A stretch of DNA of 64,000 nt, taken from NCBI RefSeq assembly GCF_900110555.1, contig NZ_FOEE01000014.1:62001-126000 (forward strand). Direction: 5' to 3'. This DNA comes from Trujillonella endophytica (GTDB lineage Bacteria > Actinomycetota > Actinomycetes > Mycobacteriales > Geodermatophilaceae). Of this stretch, positions 53,623-60,955 are shown piece by piece. The first letter of the stretch is position 1. Each line of letters begins with the position of its first letter. Made by a program: the position numbers and the translations under genes. A model generated the notes under the pieces. That model did not search any database. It worked only from the letters and a program-made list of their open reading frames with translations, and had not been told where the DNA came from.

Positions 53623-53679
53623 GTAGCAAGTGTCTCATCCGTCCCGCCGTCGATGGCGGGCATCGAGAGGTGGAACCCC

Positions 53680-54849
53680 GTGGCGCGACCCAGGCAGGCG
53701 GCGATCGCCGGCGTCTACACGACCAAGCAGGGCAAGCTGCCCGACCGCACCTCGTTCTCCCTCCAGCTGGAGGCGATCAAGGGCGCCTGCGACGACGCCG
53801 GCATCCCGGTCGAGGAGGTCGACGGGATCATCCCGTTGAGCATGTCCGACCACCTGCCCGGCACGACCGCGACGCAGTTCTGGGCCGCGCAGCTGGGTGA
53901 GCGGCCGCTGGGCCTGATGGAGACCGGGGGGGCCTCCGGTGCGCTGGCGAAGGCGGCGCTGGCCATCGAGAACGGCATGTGCGAGGTCGTCGTCCTCTTC
54001 TACGGCAAGGCCGGCTCGCTGGTCGGCCCGCGCGGCACCGCTGCCGCCGACAAGGCGCCGCGAGTGCCGGACTGGAGCTTCTACCAGTCGGGCGCCTACA
54101 TGACGACGTGGTACGCGCTGTGGGCCCAGCGCTACATGCACGAGTTCGGCGCCACCCACGCCGACCTGGCCGAGGTCGCCGTCTTCACCCGCTACCACGC
54201 GACGCTCAACCCGAACTCGATCATGGGCCGCAAGGGCGAGATCACCGTCGAGGACGTGCTGAACAGCCGGCCCATCTGCGAGCCGCTGAACCTGCTCGAC
54301 TGCTCGCTGGACAACGACGGTGGCTACGCGATCGTGATGACGTCGGCGGAGCGCGCACGGTCGGCGAAGTCCAAGCCCGTCTGGGTGCTCGGCGGCGCGG
54401 AGTCCACCTACACGGACTTCTACACCACGATCAACGACCCGTGGTTCCCCGAAGAGGGCAAGGCGGTGCGCCGTGCCGCGAACCGGGCGTTCGACATCTC
54501 CGGCATCGGCCGCGACGAGATCGACGTCGCCGGGCTCTACGACTGCTTCACCATCACCACGATCCGCGACCTCGAGGAGATGGGCTTCTGCAAGCTCGGC
54601 GAGGGCGCGGAGTACGTGAAGGAGGGCCACTGCCGCCTCGGTGGCTCGATGCCGACCAACACCGACGGCGGGCTGCTCTCCAACAGCCACGCGGGCGACC
54701 CGGCGGGCATGCACACGATCGAGGTCGTCCGCCAGCTGCGCGGTGAGTGCGGTGAGCGGCAGGTGCCGAACGCGAAGATCGGCGTCTCGCTCCAGCAGGG
54801 CTGGGCGGTGCACGGCATGGCCGGTGTCCTCGTCATGGCCGCCGACTGA
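53680..54849 (+). CDS. Thiolase-like/lipid-transfer protein (Ltp2-type), pair 3
   Basis: 389 residues: RQAAIAGVYTTKQGKLPDRTSFSLQLEAIKGACDDAGI, EPLNLLDCSLDNDGGYAIVMTSAER, DVAGLYDCFTITTIRDLEEMGFCKLGEGAEYV and LSNSHAGDPAGMHTIEVVRQLRGECG. Same family as the genes at 22841 and 35829. GTG 53680 has AGAGGTGG about 9 nt upstream; ATG 53653 is in frame but less well placed. Followed by a DUF35 gene, then the fused ACAD. Probable acyl-CoA aldolase/thiolase. Confidence 0.9.
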   Translation: MARPRQAAIAGVYTTKQGKLPDRTSFSLQLEAIKGACDDAGIPVEEVDGIIPLSMSDHLPGTTATQFWAAQLGERPLGLMETGGASGALAKAALAIENGMCEVVVLFYGKAGSLVGPRGTAAADKAPRVPDWSFYQSGAYMTTWYALWAQRYMHEFGATHADLAEVAVFTRYHATLNPNSIMGRKGEITVEDVLNSRPICEPLNLLDCSLDNDGGYAIVMTSAERARSAKSKPVWVLGGAESTYTDFYTTINDPWFPEEGKAVRRAANRAFDISGIGRDEIDVAGLYDCFTITTIRDLEEMGFCKLGEGAEYVKEGHCRLGGSMPTNTDGGLLSNSHAGDPAGMHTIEVVRQLRGECGERQVPNAKIGVSLQQGWAVHGMAGVLVMAAD

Positions 54850-54881
54850 GCCCCCCGCACCCGGACCCCCGAGGAGTCGAG

Positions 54882-55361
54882 ATGACCTACCGCAAGCCCC
54901 TTCCGCAGATCGAGCCCGCCAACCAGCCCTTCTGGGACGGCCTCGCCGCCGGCGAGTTCCGCGTCCCGAAGTGCGACAACTGTGGCCACTACAACTGGGT
55001 GCCGTTCCCGGCCTGCCGCTCCTGCCTGAACGAGGCGCAGACGTGGACGCCGGTCAGCCGGGACGCGACCGTGTGGAGCTTCAGCATCGTCCACCGCGGC
55101 CCCGGCGCCTTCAACGAGGAGGTGCCCTACGCCGTCGTCCTCGCCAAGCTGGCCGAGGAGCCGCGCGGCTGCATCGTCATCGGCAACACCGTCGGCATCG
55201 ACCCGGCCGACCTCTACGTCGGGATGCCGCTGCGGATCGTGTTCGAGACGATCGAGGGCGAGGACGTGACCGTCTTCCGGTTCGCCGCGGCCGACGCCGC
55301 CGAGCCCGACGAGGCCGACGCCGCGCTCAGCGTGGAGAACCAGCCGGCCACGGTGGCCTGA
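54882..55361 (+). CDS. DUF35 / OB-fold Zn-ribbon protein, pair 3
   Basis: 159 residues: FWDGLAAGEFRVPKCDNCGHYNWVPFPACRSCLNEAQ zinc ribbon (CxxC...CxxC), then VWSFSIVHRGPGAFNEEVPYAVVLAKL OB-fold and an acidic C-terminal tail (AADAAEPDEADAAL). ATG 54882 with GAGGAG. Expected partner of the thiolase-like protein 32 nt upstream. Confidence 0.92.
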   Translation: MTYRKPLPQIEPANQPFWDGLAAGEFRVPKCDNCGHYNWVPFPACRSCLNEAQTWTPVSRDATVWSFSIVHRGPGAFNEEVPYAVVLAKLAEEPRGCIVIGNTVGIDPADLYVGMPLRIVFETIEGEDVTVFRFAAADAAEPDEADAALSVENQPATVA

Positions 55362-55363
55362 CG

Positions 55364-57637
55364 GTGGACCTCTCCCTCACCGACGACCAGGCCGCGCTCC
55401 GGGAGTCGGTCGCCGAGCTGTTCGAGAAGCAGGCGACCCCCGAGCGGGTCCGGGCCGCGGAGGCCCGCGGCCACGACGACGCGCTCTGGCGGGTGCTCGT
55501 GCAGTCCGGGATCCCGACGATGGGCGCGCCCGAGGAGGTCGGCGGCGGGGGTGCGACCGTGTCCGACCTGGTCGTCGTCGCGATCGAGGCGGGCCGGCGG
55601 GTGGCCCCGGTCGAGCTGCCCGGGGCCTGGGCGGCGGTGCACCTCCTGGCCTGCTCGGCCGCCGGCCGGGAGGTGCTCGACGGGGTCGGCGAGGGTGCCG
55701 TCGTCCCGGCGTTCGCGCTGCGGCCGCTGCGGGCCGGCTCCGCCGGCCCCGTGCCGGGCGCGGCGGCGGCCGACCTCGTCGTCGCCCTCGACGGCGACGA
55801 GCTGGTGGCGCTCACGCGTCCGGAGGGGACGGTGGCGGAGCTGCTGCCCAACCTCGGCTCGGCCGCGCTGGCCGAGGTGAGGACGGGGGTCTGGTCGCAG
55901 CGTCGCGTGCTGGCGACCGGCGAGGAGGCGCACCGGGCGCACGCGGACGCCGTGTCGCTGTGGCGGGTGCTCACCGCCGCGGCGCTGGAGGGCGTGCGGC
56001 GGGAGGCGCTGCGGCTCGGCGTCGACTACGTCAAGGAGCGGCACGCCTTCGGCGTCCCGATCGCCTGGTTCCAGACGGTGCAGCACCGGCTGGCCGACGA
56101 GGCCACGGCCGGAGACGGGGCCGAGCTGCTGGTGCAGGAGGCGGCCTGGGCGCGCGACACCGGGGACGCCCGGGCGGTGGCCCTGGCCCGGATGGCCCTG
56201 CTCTTCGCCGGTGAGACCGCGTTCTCCACCGCCGCCGCGAGCCTGCACTTCCACGGTGGCTACGGCTACACGCTCGAGTACGACATCCAGCTGTACTACC
56301 GGCGGGCCAAGGCCTGGCCGCTCGCGCTGGGCGCTCCCCGGCACGAGCTGCGGGCGCTCGCCACCGACCTGTTCGCCCCCCGTGGCCTCAGCAAGGACCT
56401 CCCTGCCCCCCACCACTCGCAGGCTCGCGGCGGGCCCCTGCAGGGAGGCCGGACGACCCGGCCTGGCCCGGACTTCACCGAGCACGACTCCCTCGCGGAG
56501 TTCCGCAGGTCGGCGCGGGAGTGGGCCGACGAGCACGTGGACCCCGCGTGGGCCGACCTGGAGCACGCCACGGGCACCCACCACAACGCGGACCTGCACG
56601 CGCTGCTCGGGCGGCAGGGGCTGCTGGGTGCCGGCTGGCCTGCGGAGTACGGCGGCACCGACGTCGACCCCGGCTACGCGCTGGCGGTCTTCCAGGAGAT
56701 CGGCGCGCGCGGGCTGCGGATGGACGGCTGGGTGACCACCGAGATGGTCGCGCGCACGATCCTGCACGTGGCCACCGAGGAGGCCAAGCAGGAGATCGTC
56801 CCGGCCGCGCTGCGCGGTGAGGTCGTCATCGTGCTCGGCTACACCGAGCCCGGCTCCGGCTCCGACGCCGCAGCCGCCAGGATGCGCGCCGTCCGCGACG
56901 GCGACGAGTGGGTGGTCAACGGCTCGAAGATGTTCACCAGCACCGCGCACATGGCCACCCACGTGTTCCTGCTGACCCGCACGAACACCGAGGTCCCCAA
57001 GCACAAGGGGCTGACCCTCCTGCTGGCCCGGCTCGACGCCCCCGGGGTCGAGGTGCAGCCGGTGCACACCCTCGGCGGCCAGCGCACCAACGCGACCTTC
57101 TACTCCGACGTGCGGGTGCCGGACGCGATGCGGATCGGCGACGTCGACGGCGGCTGGGGCGTCATGCGGGTGGCCCTGGTGCACGAGCGGGGCACCGCCA
57201 CGGCCCCGGGTGGACCGACGCTGGTCGAGCAGGTGGCCGCCTGGGCGCGGGAGACCCCCGGGGGCGACGGCGAGGTGCTCCTCGCCGACCCGACGGTCGC
57301 CGAGCACCTGGCCAGGCTCGCCCTCGACGAGGAGATCGGCCGGCTGCTGGGCCTGAAGGTCCGCTGGGTCGCCTCGACCGGCGGGCTGCCCGGCATCGAG
57401 GGGTCGATGCAGAAGCTGTACGCCAGCGAGGCCGAGCAGCGCCGGGTCGACGTCCTCACCGACCTGCTGGGGGAGCAGGCGCTGCTCGCCGGCGACGCGG
57501 GGCCGCTGCACGGCGCCGTCGAGTGGGCGCTGCGCAAGGCCCCGGTGAGCACCATCTACGGCGGCAGCAGCGAGGTCATGCGGGAGATCGTCGCCGAGCG
57601 GCGGCTGGGGCTGCCACGCAGCCGGCCGACCGGGTGA
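55364..57637 (+). CDS. Fused double acyl-CoA dehydrogenase
   Basis: 757 residues in one frame with two complete ACAD domains. Domain 1 (about 1-340) is beta-type: VDLSLTDDQAALRESVAELF to FHGGYGYTLEYDIQLYYRRAK. A Pro/Gly/His-rich linker (about 341-370) follows. Domain 2 (about 371-757) is alpha-type: SLAEFRRSAREWADEHVDP, YTEPGSGSDAAAARM, and C-terminal STIYGGSSEVMREIVAERRLGLPR. Elsewhere in this window the same two types are separate genes, so this is a natural fusion of a heteromeric enzyme. GTG 55364 is 2 nt after the DUF35 stop. Catalysis probably resides in domain 2. Confidence 0.9.
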   Translation: MDLSLTDDQAALRESVAELFEKQATPERVRAAEARGHDDALWRVLVQSGIPTMGAPEEVGGGGATVSDLVVVAIEAGRRVAPVELPGAWAAVHLLACSAAGREVLDGVGEGAVVPAFALRPLRAGSAGPVPGAAAADLVVALDGDELVALTRPEGTVAELLPNLGSAALAEVRTGVWSQRRVLATGEEAHRAHADAVSLWRVLTAAALEGVRREALRLGVDYVKERHAFGVPIAWFQTVQHRLADEATAGDGAELLVQEAAWARDTGDARAVALARMALLFAGETAFSTAAASLHFHGGYGYTLEYDIQLYYRRAKAWPLALGAPRHELRALATDLFAPRGLSKDLPAPHHSQARGGPLQGGRTTRPGPDFTEHDSLAEFRRSAREWADEHVDPAWADLEHATGTHHNADLHALLGRQGLLGAGWPAEYGGTDVDPGYALAVFQEIGARGLRMDGWVTTEMVARTILHVATEEAKQEIVPAALRGEVVIVLGYTEPGSGSDAAAARMRAVRDGDEWVVNGSKMFTSTAHMATHVFLLTRTNTEVPKHKGLTLLLARLDAPGVEVQPVHTLGGQRTNATFYSDVRVPDAMRIGDVDGGWGVMRVALVHERGTATAPGGPTLVEQVAAWARETPGGDGEVLLADPTVAEHLARLALDEEIGRLLGLKVRWVASTGGLPGIEGSMQKLYASEAEQRRVDVLTDLLGEQALLAGDAGPLHGAVEWALRKAPVSTIYGGSSEVMREIVAERRLGLPRSRPTG
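56398..56447. other. Inverted repeat inside the fused-ACAD linker
   Basis: CCTCCCTGC (from 56398) and GCAGGGAGG (to about 56447) are reverse complements that bracket about 30 bp within the linker-coding DNA. It looks like an intergenic hairpin now translated in frame. Confidence 0.6.
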
Positions 57638-58077
57638 GGGGGGACGCCGCCGACGTCCTGGCGGTCATCGGCGTGCTCAACCGGTACGCGTGGGCGCTGG
57701 ACACCCGGGACTGGGAGGGGCTGTGCGAGGTCTTCGCCGAGGACCTCCGCGCGGACTACGGCGCGTTCACCGTGACCGGCGTCGGCGACATGGTCGAGCG
57801 GATGCGGGAGTCGCACGCGCACGTCGACTCCACCCAGCACCTGATCGGCGGGCACGACGTGCAGGTCGACGGGGACGTCGCGCGCAGCCGCTGCCAGGTG
57901 ATCGCCACCCTGCGCCGGGCCGGCCGGCCGTCGCGCATCTACCGGATGGGCGGCTGGTACGCCGACGAGCTGGTGCGCACGCCGGCCGGCTGGCGGATCG
58001 CCGTCCGCACCGCGCACGGGTTGTGGCAGGAGGGTGACCGCGCCGTGCCCCGCCCGCCGGACGTCGCCAACAGCTAA
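57634..58077 (+). CDS. SnoaL/NTF2-like protein
   Basis: 147 residues: DVLAVIGVLNRYAWALDTRDWEGLCEVFAEDLRADYGAFTVTG, DSTQHLIGGHDVQVDGDVARSRCQVIATL and RMGGWYADELVRTPAGWRIAVRTAHGLWQEG. The Asp/His pattern resembles SnoaL-like isomerases and hydratases. GTG 57634 overlaps the fused-ACAD stop. Similar in sequence style to the C-terminal domain of the LLM fusion at 32628. Confidence 0.87.
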   Translation: MRGDAADVLAVIGVLNRYAWALDTRDWEGLCEVFAEDLRADYGAFTVTGVGDMVERMRESHAHVDSTQHLIGGHDVQVDGDVARSRCQVIATLRRAGRPSRIYRMGGWYADELVRTPAGWRIAVRTAHGLWQEGDRAVPRPPDVANS

Positions 58078-58093
58078 TCTTTGCAATGTTAGC
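58073..58093. promoter_or_regulatory. Imperfect palindrome before the P450 gene
   Basis: GCTAA at 58073-58077 and TTAGC at 58089-58093 flank TCTTTGCAATG, with TTGCAA near the centre. The first arm overlaps the SnoaL stop codon. TTGCAATGTTAGCGA resembles 27184-27198. Candidate operator or promoter for the P450 at 58121. Confidence 0.45.
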
Positions 58094-58120
58094 GAGACGA
58101 CCTTCTGAGGAGCGGATGAG

Positions 58121-59434
58121 ATGACGACGTCGGAGACCGCCGGGCCGTGCCCGGTGTCGACCCGGTCCCTCGAGGACGGCGCGGCGCCGCGGCCGGTCAT
58201 CGACCTGGACGTGCACGGCGAGCGCTTCTCCGCGCAGAACTACGACATCTACCGCGAGCTCCTGCAGACGGCTCCGGTCGCGTGGGACCGGCGCAACGGC
58301 GGCTTCTGGATGCTCACCGGCTACCAGCCGGTCTTCGAGGCCACCAAGGACGACGACCTGTTCCTCTCCTCGCCCGGCACCGGCCTCCCCAGGGACGGCG
58401 CGGAGGGTGGCATGCCGGAGGGGACCGGTCCCATCCCGATCGAGATCGATCCGCCGCAGACCCAGCAGTACCGCAAGCCGGTGCTGGGGCTGCTGTCGCC
58501 GAAGTCGGTGTCGGCGATGGAGCCGGGGATCCGGGCGGCGGCCGACGAGTTGATCGACGCGTTCGTCGAGTCGGGCGAGGGGGACCTCGTCCAGCAGCTC
58601 AGCACGCCGCTGCCGGCGCTGATGGCGCTGCGCATCCTCGGCATGGACGAGAGCCGTTGGCCGCAGTTCGTGCACTGGATCCACACGATCATCCACGGCG
58701 ACCGGGCCGAGGCCGGCGAGGCGCAGATCGCGCTCTTCGGCGAGGTGTCCCGGGCCCTGGAGGAGCGGGCGGCGCTGGCGGACAAGCCCGACGACGTCCT
58801 GACCGCGATCGTCACCTGCCAGGTCGACGGCCAGACGATCGGCTTCATGGAGCAGGTCCGCTACGTCTTCCTGGTGATGCTCGGCGGCATGGACACGACC
58901 AGCGGCCTGACGGGCAACAGCCTCGAGCGGATCGCCCGCGACCCGGCGCTGCGGCAGCGGCTGATCGAGCGCCGCGACCTGCTGGACCGCGCCACCGAGG
59001 AGTTCCTCCGGGTGGGGACGCCCACGCAGGGCCTGGCCCGCACGCTGTCGCGCGACGCGGAGTTCCACGGCCAGCAGATGAAGGCGGGGGAGCGGGTGAT
59101 GCTCATGTGGGCCGCGGCCAACTACGACCCCGCCGAGTTCGACGACCCGCACACGGTCGACGTCGAGCGGTGGCCCAACCGGCACATGGCCTTCGGCGTC
59201 GGCATCCACCGCTGCCTGGGGTCCAACCTCGCGCGGACGATGTTCCAGGTCATGATCGACCGGGTCCTCGACCGGCTGCCGGACTTCGAGCTGACGGTCG
59301 ACGAGGTGCCGCGCTTCGAGGACGCCGGCAACGTCTACGCGCCGACCAGCTTCCCCGTCCGCTTCACGCCCGGTCCGCGGGTCGGGCCGTCGGCCGGGCC
59401 GGCAGCCCCGGGCGTGCCCTCGACCGTGGAGTGA
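58121..59434 (+). CDS. Cytochrome P450
   Basis: 437-residue P450. I-helix VMLGGMDTTSGL, K-helix EEFLRV, haem loop FGVGIHRCLG with ligand Cys365, and a Pro/Gly-rich C-terminal tail. ATG 58121 with GAGGAG upstream. 43 nt after the SnoaL stop and 27 nt before the MFS gene. No adjacent ferredoxin. Confidence 0.93.
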   Translation: MTTSETAGPCPVSTRSLEDGAAPRPVIDLDVHGERFSAQNYDIYRELLQTAPVAWDRRNGGFWMLTGYQPVFEATKDDDLFLSSPGTGLPRDGAEGGMPEGTGPIPIEIDPPQTQQYRKPVLGLLSPKSVSAMEPGIRAAADELIDAFVESGEGDLVQQLSTPLPALMALRILGMDESRWPQFVHWIHTIIHGDRAEAGEAQIALFGEVSRALEERAALADKPDDVLTAIVTCQVDGQTIGFMEQVRYVFLVMLGGMDTTSGLTGNSLERIARDPALRQRLIERRDLLDRATEEFLRVGTPTQGLARTLSRDAEFHGQQMKAGERVMLMWAAANYDPAEFDDPHTVDVERWPNRHMAFGVGIHRCLGSNLARTMFQVMIDRVLDRLPDFELTVDEVPRFEDAGNVYAPTSFPVRFTPGPRVGPSAGPAAPGVPSTVE

Positions 59435-59461: not shown

Positions 59462-60955
59462 GTGAGGTCCCGACGGCGACGCGACCTGCCGCCGTTGGGG
59501 GCGGCCGCGTTCGTGCTCAGCCTGGTCATGCTCCTGGTGTCGATGACGCTCTCGAGCATGAACGTGGCGCTGCCCAGCGTGCAGGAGGACCTGGGGCTGT
59601 CGGAGGACTCCCTCCAGTGGGTGGTGACCAGCTACTCCCTGCCCTTCGGCGGCCTGCTGCTGCTGGGCGGCCGTGCCGGGGACCTGCTGGGCCGGCGCCG
59701 GGTCCTGCTGGCCGGCGTCGCCCTCTTCACCGGCGCCTCGCTGGCGACCGCCCTGGCCACGGGGCCGGCGTTCCTCTTCGCCGCCCGCGCGGTCCAGGGG
59801 GTCGGCGCCGCGCTGGCCGCGCCCAGCGCCCTGGCGCTGATCACCGAGCAGTACGCCGAGGGCTCGCCGCGCAACCGGGCCCTCGGGGTGTACGCGGGCG
59901 CGGCCAGCGCCGGCGCCGCGGTCGGGCTCGTCCTCGGCGGCGCGCTCACCGTGCTCAGCTGGCGGGCGACGGCGCTGTTGAACGTGCCGTTCGGCGTCCT
60001 CGTCTGCCTCCTGGCCCCGCGGCTGGTCGCGGAGACCGCGCGGCAGGGCCGCCGGCTCGACCTGACCGGGGCGGTGACCGGGACCCTGGGGCTCTCGGCG
60101 CTGGCGTTCGCGCTGTCCCAGGCCTCCCGGTACGGCTGGACGGACCGGCAGACGTGGGTCCCCGCCGTCGCGGCCGTCGTCCCGCTGGCGGGGTTCGGCG
60201 TGCGCGAGGTGCTCGCCCGCGAGCCCCTGTTGCCGCTGCGGCTGTTCCGCGACCGGTCGCGGGCCGGGGCCTACGCCACCACCCTGCTCGTGGTGGCCTA
60301 CCAGGGCGTCAGCTTCCTGTTCCTGGCGCAGTACGTGCAGCGGGTGCTCGGCTACAGCCCGCTGGAGGCGGGACTGATCTACCTTCCGGCCACCCTGGCC
60401 AACACGTTCCTGCCGGTGGTCTGGGCGCGCCTGATGACCCGGTTCGGGGGCCGGGCGCTGGTCGTGGCCGGCGTGACCTGCTCGGCGATCGGTCTCGCGG
60501 GCCCGGCGCAGCTCGACACCGACACGCAGTACCTCACCGGACTGCTGCCCTTCATGGTCTTCACCGCGGCCGGCGCCGGGCTGACCTTCCTCCCGCTGAC
60601 CCTCGTGGCGGTGCACGGCGTCGAGTCCCGGGACGTCGGCATCTCCTCGGGCGTGCTCAACGCCCTGCAGTCCGTGGGCGGCGCCCTGGGCATCGCCGCC
60701 GTCGTGTCGCTGGCGGCGGCGGTGACCACGGGCGAGCTGGGCGGGGCGCCGGCCGCGGGTGCGGAACTCGCGGCGGCGCTCGTCGCCGGGTACCGGACCG
60801 CGTTCTGGATCTGCTGCGGCCTGGCCGTCTGGGCGTTGCTGGTCGCGCTGCCCACGATCGGCCCCGTGGGACGCCGGCCGCGCGAGGCCGACGTCCCCGG
60901 CGCCGTCGTCGACCCCGCGCTGGTCCCGCCGCCGTCGGGCCGTCAGCCCTCGTAG
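59462..60955 (+). CDS. MFS transporter, EmrB/QacA (DHA2) type
   Basis: 497 residues, about 14 membrane segments. Motif-A loop GGRAGDLLGRRRVLLAG, motif-C-like GAASAGAAVGLVLGGALT. DHA2 transporters are proton antiporters that export hydrophobic compounds; here it could export substrate or toxic intermediates of the pathway. GTG 59462 (the nearby ATGs are out of frame or stop at once). Its 3' end overlaps the convergent SnoaL gene by 13 nt. Confidence 0.92.
   Translation: MRSRRRRDLPPLGAAAFVLSLVMLLVSMTLSSMNVALPSVQEDLGLSEDSLQWVVTSYSLPFGGLLLLGGRAGDLLGRRRVLLAGVALFTGASLATALATGPAFLFAARAVQGVGAALAAPSALALITEQYAEGSPRNRALGVYAGAASAGAAVGLVLGGALTVLSWRATALLNVPFGVLVCLLAPRLVAETARQGRRLDLTGAVTGTLGLSALAFALSQASRYGWTDRQTWVPAVAAVVPLAGFGVREVLAREPLLPLRLFRDRSRAGAYATTLLVVAYQGVSFLFLAQYVQRVLGYSPLEAGLIYLPATLANTFLPVVWARLMTRFGGRALVVAGVTCSAIGLAGPAQLDTDTQYLTGLLPFMVFTAAGAGLTFLPLTLVAVHGVESRDVGISSGVLNALQSVGGALGIAAVVSLAAAVTTGELGGAPAAGAELAAALVAGYRTAFWICCGLAVWALLVALPTIGPVGRRPREADVPGAVVDPALVPPPSGRQPS

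Follow-up and report, generated by a model that had tools for sequence, protein, structure and literature searches.

A fused beta-alpha acyl-CoA dehydrogenase gene in Trujillonella endophytica with a dispersed REP-like element at its domain junction

Results

A two-domain gene and its neighbors

The window, meaning the whole 64,000-nucleotide stretch of Trujillonella endophytica DNA analyzed here, carries at 55364..57637 a fused two-domain acyl-CoA dehydrogenase (ACAD) gene of 757 codons plus stop, recognized by ORF scan, Pfam and a codon-usage caller (spans written in this way are all on the forward strand). Its single frame runs from the GTG at 55364 to the TGA at 57635-57637 without an internal stop. 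Domain 1 (residues 1-340, 55364..56383) is of beta type by Pfam, curated-family and solved-structure matches. It has the N- and C-terminal ACAD domains of Pfam, with no match to the middle domain at E 0.001; its top curated family is IpdE2, far under cut-off (133.9 of 450 bits), and the solved relative Tcur3481 aligns over its full length. Domain 2 (56471..57637, stop included) is of alpha type by Pfam and solved-structure matches, with N, middle and C domains; among solved structures Tcur3483 matches it best (E 5e-66), and chain A of 4x28 (ChsE4-ChsE5 complex) comes next. A VIA-align comparison with the PDB, which covered mostly residues 367-752 and barely touched domain 1, places 6wy9_A (Z 30.4), 6wy8_B (28.6), 8hk0_A (Fic32-33 complex, 28.3) and 4x28_B (26.6) in the top rows for domain 2. 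A chance open frame is excluded, because homologues are found for each half along its entire length and because the codon-usage caller, trained without the fused gene, returns 55364-57637 as one gene (score 419.7). The stop-free frame and the Pfam domains of both halves thus confirm what a preliminary description had claimed, a beta-type and a full alpha-type ACAD in one open frame of 757 residues. The separate ACAD pairs that it listed at 590/1723 and 51140/52399 also exist.

Upstream lie genes for a thiolase/lipid-transfer-protein-like protein (53653..54849; family and Pfam matches) and for a DUF35/ChsH2-type zinc ribbon and OB-fold protein (54882..55361; Pfam). Downstream are a SnoaL-like gene (57634..58077; Pfam) and a cytochrome P450 gene (58121..59434; Pfam and solved-structure matches, with CYP125/CYP142 as the top solved relatives). 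The operon at 53653-59434 looks mosaic. Its thiolase is 98% identical to that of Blastococcus endophyticus and 91-92% to those of genomes G001 and G002, while the corresponding values for its P450 are 83% and 90-91%.

Relatives with separate genes

In all four of the closest relatives examined, beta and alpha are separate genes that overlap as TGATG. These are B. endophyticus (L060); two same-genus genomes, G001 (L140) and G002 (L141); and the more distant G046 (L142) of the same order. Beta is 79% identical to that of the window in L060, 83% in L140, 82% in L141 and 55% in L142; for alpha the values are 90%, 87%, 92% and 60% in the same order. The order thiolase-DUF35-beta-alpha-SnoaL-P450 is common to the window, L060, L140 and L141. 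A search of 112 genomes of the family finds matches at E 1e-120 or better only in the window's own genome, G001 and G002; L060 comes from a different collection.

Among 80 loci of the genome collection, 53 have collinear beta-alpha pairs by our own collinearity filter, 44 of them split and 9 fused. Two-ACAD architectures thus occur elsewhere, in these nine loci and in the described enzyme CasC, whose build is shared by FadE34/ChsE3. The window's own genome holds a second, distant fused two-ACAD gene (G000:C14:14492-16546, here L010) of CasC/FadE34-like build. A mostly proteobacterial clade (L063-L068 and L070) and an acidimicrobial MAG (L061) have the same two domains fused, and on the tree they do not group with the window.

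That tree is a quick maximum-likelihood tree with SH-aLRT support only. It has 54 rows, from 64 pairs minus 11 (two duplicates, nine partial or far) plus one pair for the window. The fused state requires five changes on it, the same count being obtained with starred branches only; the count does not distinguish gain from loss. The window is the only fused member of a clade that is otherwise split (SH-aLRT 100). The branches of L010 and L108 are long and uncertain, and the fused or split label of L108 is the least sure because its alpha match begins late. Descent of the window gene from the CasC/FadE34 fused lineage is strongly disfavored by the five changes and the split clade, with L010, assigned by build and distance, as the lineage's only representative.

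The preliminary description had raised the question whether the fused form clusters with thiolase and DUF35 genes, and such clustering is not supported. Three split relatives share the gene order, the split mycobacterial loci L062 and L098 have both a thiolase and a DUF35 gene, and none of the seven other fused loci checked (of nine found) has a match to the thiolase or DUF35 protein of the window in the flanks available.

The junction

The two domains are connected by residues 341-369 (56384..56470), a linker predicted to be disordered (pLDDT below 50). Most of it is encoded by a copy of a REP-like palindromic element at 56389..56454, a covariance-model match of 85.4 bits, in which a repeat scan finds the left arm CCTCCCTGC (56398..56406) and the right arm GCAGGGAGG (56440..56448) of an outer inverted repeat. 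That the extra junction DNA belongs to a dispersed repeat went unmentioned in the preliminary description. No match to the element model occurs at the beta/alpha junction of L060, L140, L141 or L142. The matched domains lie 96 bases apart in the window, versus 47 in L060, 26 in L140 and L141, and 17 in L142. At the site of the alpha start, the four relatives read TGATGGACTTC and the window reads CCTGGCCCGGACTTC. On alignment, the CCG of Pro369 (56468..56470) stands where the alpha gene of these relatives begins with ATG, and the earlier proposal of an ancestral start, its Met changed to the Pro of PDFTEHDSL, holds. The TGATG overlap is absent from the window; beta has lost its stop, alpha has lost its ATG, and the two frames are aligned. 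With loss of a stop, loss of a start and a change of frame all present, more than one step was possibly involved.

The junction is 80% GC, the element copy is stop-free in all six frames, and no forward frame has any stop between 56213 and 56732. The last of these observations speaks against a single indel as the cause of the fusion, and also means that a one-base indel error alone could not bring back two genes. A single substitution that opens the frame, TGA to TCA next to the element, is also rejected, since that triplet lies outside the beta frame.

Two polypeptides might nevertheless persist, either by cleavage of the linker or by an internal alpha start at GTG 56537 or CTG 56438, a reading that we consider improbable. 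The GTG (56537..56539) is in frame and is the sole in-frame ATG, GTG or TTG found between 56300 and 56650 by a start-codon scan, making it a possible but unlikely separate start; the CTG falls within the linker, and separate genes are the commoner state among the collinear pairs. However, no in-frame stop precedes 57635, so a free beta protein of normal length would require cleavage. The 22 alpha codons ahead of the GTG are identical to those of L060 at 18 positions, of L141 at 16 and of L140 at 9, and the amino acids that they encode differ from L060 at 3 positions and from L141 at 4, though from L140 at 10. An alpha protein begun at the GTG would also miss its first predicted helix (residues 375-391).

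A dispersed REP-like element

The element is a palindrome of about 60 bp with 101 covariance-model matches in the window's own genome at E 0.01 (these E-values being rough). The junction repeat has at least 40 strong BLAST matches there, with 40 of 152 candidates scored. Among the own-genome copies scored, none of the others exceeds 95% identity to the junction copy. A copy in G022, from another genus of the family (C1:1011338-1011397), equals it at 60 of 60 bases. Element matches are found in 24 of the 35 family genomes searched, not all of which are complete, and in one of 24 other genomes of the order. Aligned copies conserve the hairpin, with paired changes on both sides at 7 of the 15 pairs of the outer stem; taken alone, the RNA fold of the window copy is not more stable than shuffles (z -0.31). 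Ten element loci match no Rfam family at the gathering threshold. A search of the genome for the Y1 transposase (PF01797) gives 0 matches, while the control search is positive in 5 of 14 genomes; since no RAYT-type Y1 transposase is found, we call the element REP-like and do not file it as REP.

Copies tend to adjoin stop codons. Placement relied on a home-made ORF caller trained on 12 genes of the window (10 for the recount without the fused gene), which classes 26 of 32 copies as intergenic. Twenty-two of the 36 other own-genome copies begin no more than a few bases from the stop codon of a gene in the same orientation, as do 18 of 33 in relatives, and a separate count of own-genome copies puts 17 of 31 others at stop codons. 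A placement scan, in which 6 of 30 loci were not placeable, covers 24 loci including that of the window; the left end lies near a coding stop in 14 of them and the right end in 3 more. The chance rate of stop adjacency (-3 to +2), with copies treated as independent, is 0.003 over all positions and 0.012 over intergenic ones. Read-through with coding on both sides is seen in one of 37 own-genome copies, that of the window, and in 0 of 33 in relatives, so that no second gene joined by the element appears among these copies. Taken together, the copies suggest a repeat family that adjoins stop codons and has spread through much of one bacterial family.

A search for empty orthologous sites of other own-genome copies found only partial flanks. 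In B. endophyticus, a copy at L060:11841-11906 lies directly after a stop codon, and a convergent MFS frame appears to run through it; the same site in the window (about 60930-60945) has no copy, and copies are thus gained or lost between close relatives. In the open-licence literature, no title or abstract opening names this repeat in Geodermatophilaceae or a gene fusion made by such an element.

The main risk to our account is that the fusion is known from one genome and that its junction is very GC-rich, and so bad for sequencing. The fused frame could be a sequencing or assembly error in the hairpin, the true genome having two genes with the element between them. The hairpin arms at the junction and the many copies that sit at stops without joining genes agree with such an error, but it has little probability in our judgment. 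With zero stops in the forward frames across the junction, several separate errors would be needed, including removal of both a stop and a start. The limited identity of the junction copy to other own-genome copies also speaks against it, though the G022 copy is identical, and a repeat-driven misassembly is unlikely because the flanks keep the operon order of the relatives.

Selection, structure and likely function

By NG86, comparisons of the window with its relatives give dN/dS values of 0.27-0.35 (beta) and 0.16-0.26 (alpha), against 0.20-0.32 and 0.15-0.22 among the relatives themselves. Such values are rough at this GC content; as rough signs, they make both halves look to be under purifying selection. 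Lineage-specific amino acid changes in beta number 16 in the window, 7 each in L140 and L141, and 24 in L060. In alpha the window has 10, versus 19, 4 and 7 in three relatives. That the gene is instead decaying, the fused frame being a non-functional accident in a broken pair before its loss, strikes us as very improbable. None of the relatives seen shares the fusion, and the beta changes in the window exceed those of L140 and L141, though not those of L060. On the other side, 2.3 kb have been kept without frameshift or stop, Glu608 is intact, and the dN/dS range of the window comparisons (0.16-0.35) is close to that among the relatives (0.15-0.32).

Glu608 (codon 57185..57187), the putative catalytic base, lies in the motif VHERG and aligns with the Glu of the Tcur3483 HER motif. 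The relatives shown, fused and split alike, retain it, the column being Glu in 15 of 15 rows. We take this position to be that of the catalytic base. The conserved Glu at this place agrees with the earlier assignment of catalysis to domain 2. In a sequence alignment to Tcur3481, a catalytic-type Glu is not seen at the matching stretch of beta. An AlphaFold2 model of the fused chain, built from 46 rows (an alignment without L087 and without the alpha sequence of L081), has a pLDDT of 88.5 and a pTM of 0.89, with residues 341-369 below 50. Domain packing is judged from pTM. The model supports the covalent beta-alpha pair that had been proposed, and by analogy with solved complexes the protein is most likely a covalent alpha-beta heterodimer that dehydrogenates a bulky, steroid-like acyl-CoA. 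Its kin and its neighbors, namely the CYP125/142-like P450, the thiolase and the DUF35 protein, point to an acyl-CoA with a bulky steroid- or terpenoid-like group as the probable substrate. Domain 1 may help to shape the pocket, as the preliminary description proposed. Overall, the earlier interpretation is partly supported.

Discussion

Origin of the fusion

The routes by which adjacent subunit genes become one gene are seldom visible, because old fusions keep no traces. Here the split relatives, the intact synteny and the recognizable repeat in the linker make the fusion event readable and open to bench testing. We consider it likely that a junction rebuilt around the element turned separate beta and alpha genes into a one-chain ACAD that packs as the old heterodimer did and acts on a steroid- or terpenoid-like substrate. 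The starting point would be an ancestral operon in which the beta and alpha ACADs had a gene each and the two genes overlapped, stop on start, as TGATG. In the window lineage, the junction would have been rebuilt around one copy of the dispersed palindromic REP-like element. Beta lost its stop, and alpha lost its start and came into the beta frame; these changes can be read directly from the alignment. The gene would then be translated as a single chain, in which the element plus its borders encode a predicted flexible linker of about 29 residues. By analogy, domains 1 and 2 would pack like the former alpha-beta heterodimer, with Glu608 supplied by domain 2 and one FAD bound at the domain interface, and two fused chains would pair to replace the alpha2beta2 tetramer.

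Several observations sit poorly with this best explanation: a simple insertion leaves part of the junction unexplained, L140 shares only 9 of the 22 codons at the start of alpha, the beta dN/dS is somewhat above that of the relatives, the window copy by itself folds no better than shuffles, and the genome search found no Y1 transposase able to move the element. More tentatively, at a little under even chances, a palindromic element family of one actinobacterial family that settles at stop codons may amount to a ready-made in-frame linker. Landing on a TGATG overlap of co-translated subunit genes, it could yield, in a single step or a few, a covalent heteromer that works, and the window would then be a natural, recent example of how CasC-like enzymes arise.

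Comparison with known systems

The architecture itself is already known from CasC. What is new is the origin: among the relatives seen, the fusion is found in one genome, where it coincides with a repeat copy. The visible likely cause and the repeat family, rather than the architecture, make the case interesting. REP elements of the GTAG and CGTC families are, in the sections of PMC3733652 drawn on here, short many-copy palindromes near the 3' ends of upstream genes that sometimes supply stop codons and sometimes lie inside genes, and the sections used of PMC10969869 describe Rickettsia palindromic elements as in-frame inserts. The element family found here resembles both as short palindromes in many copies, and REP also in its position near the 3' ends of genes. 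It differs in that the window copy joins two genes, a type of junction that does not appear in those sections of either paper.

The separate-chain complexes Tcur3481-Tcur3483 and ChsE4-ChsE5 are among the top solved relatives of the window halves, but are only 32-37% identical to the window in the alpha domain. Such alpha2beta2 steroid ACAD complexes have the Glu in one of their subunits and bind FAD at the subunit interface, as given in the portion of PMC8399759 used here. The fused ACADs of Pseudomonas, Herbaspirillum, Cellvibrionales and a deltaproteobacterial MAG (L063-L068, L070) and of the acidimicrobial MAG (L061) have the domain order of the window at 36-50% identity and are collinear throughout. 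The linkers of L063, L065, L067 and L070 are shorter than that of the window. A search for the element in three of these fused genes gives nothing in L061 and unconvincing matches in L063 and L064, at E 0.8.

The nearest counterpart in build is CasC of Rhodococcus jostii RHA1, which likewise has two ACAD domains per chain; the likeness to the window protein is one of description. According to the same portion of PMC8399759, only the C-terminal domain of CasC has the catalytic Glu and FAD binding needs the N-terminal domain, and CasC shows that fused enzymes of this kind work. PMC6678751, in the part used, names FadE34 by its reaction. The window protein differs from CasC in that its nearest kin are split pairs and its linker holds a repeat element.
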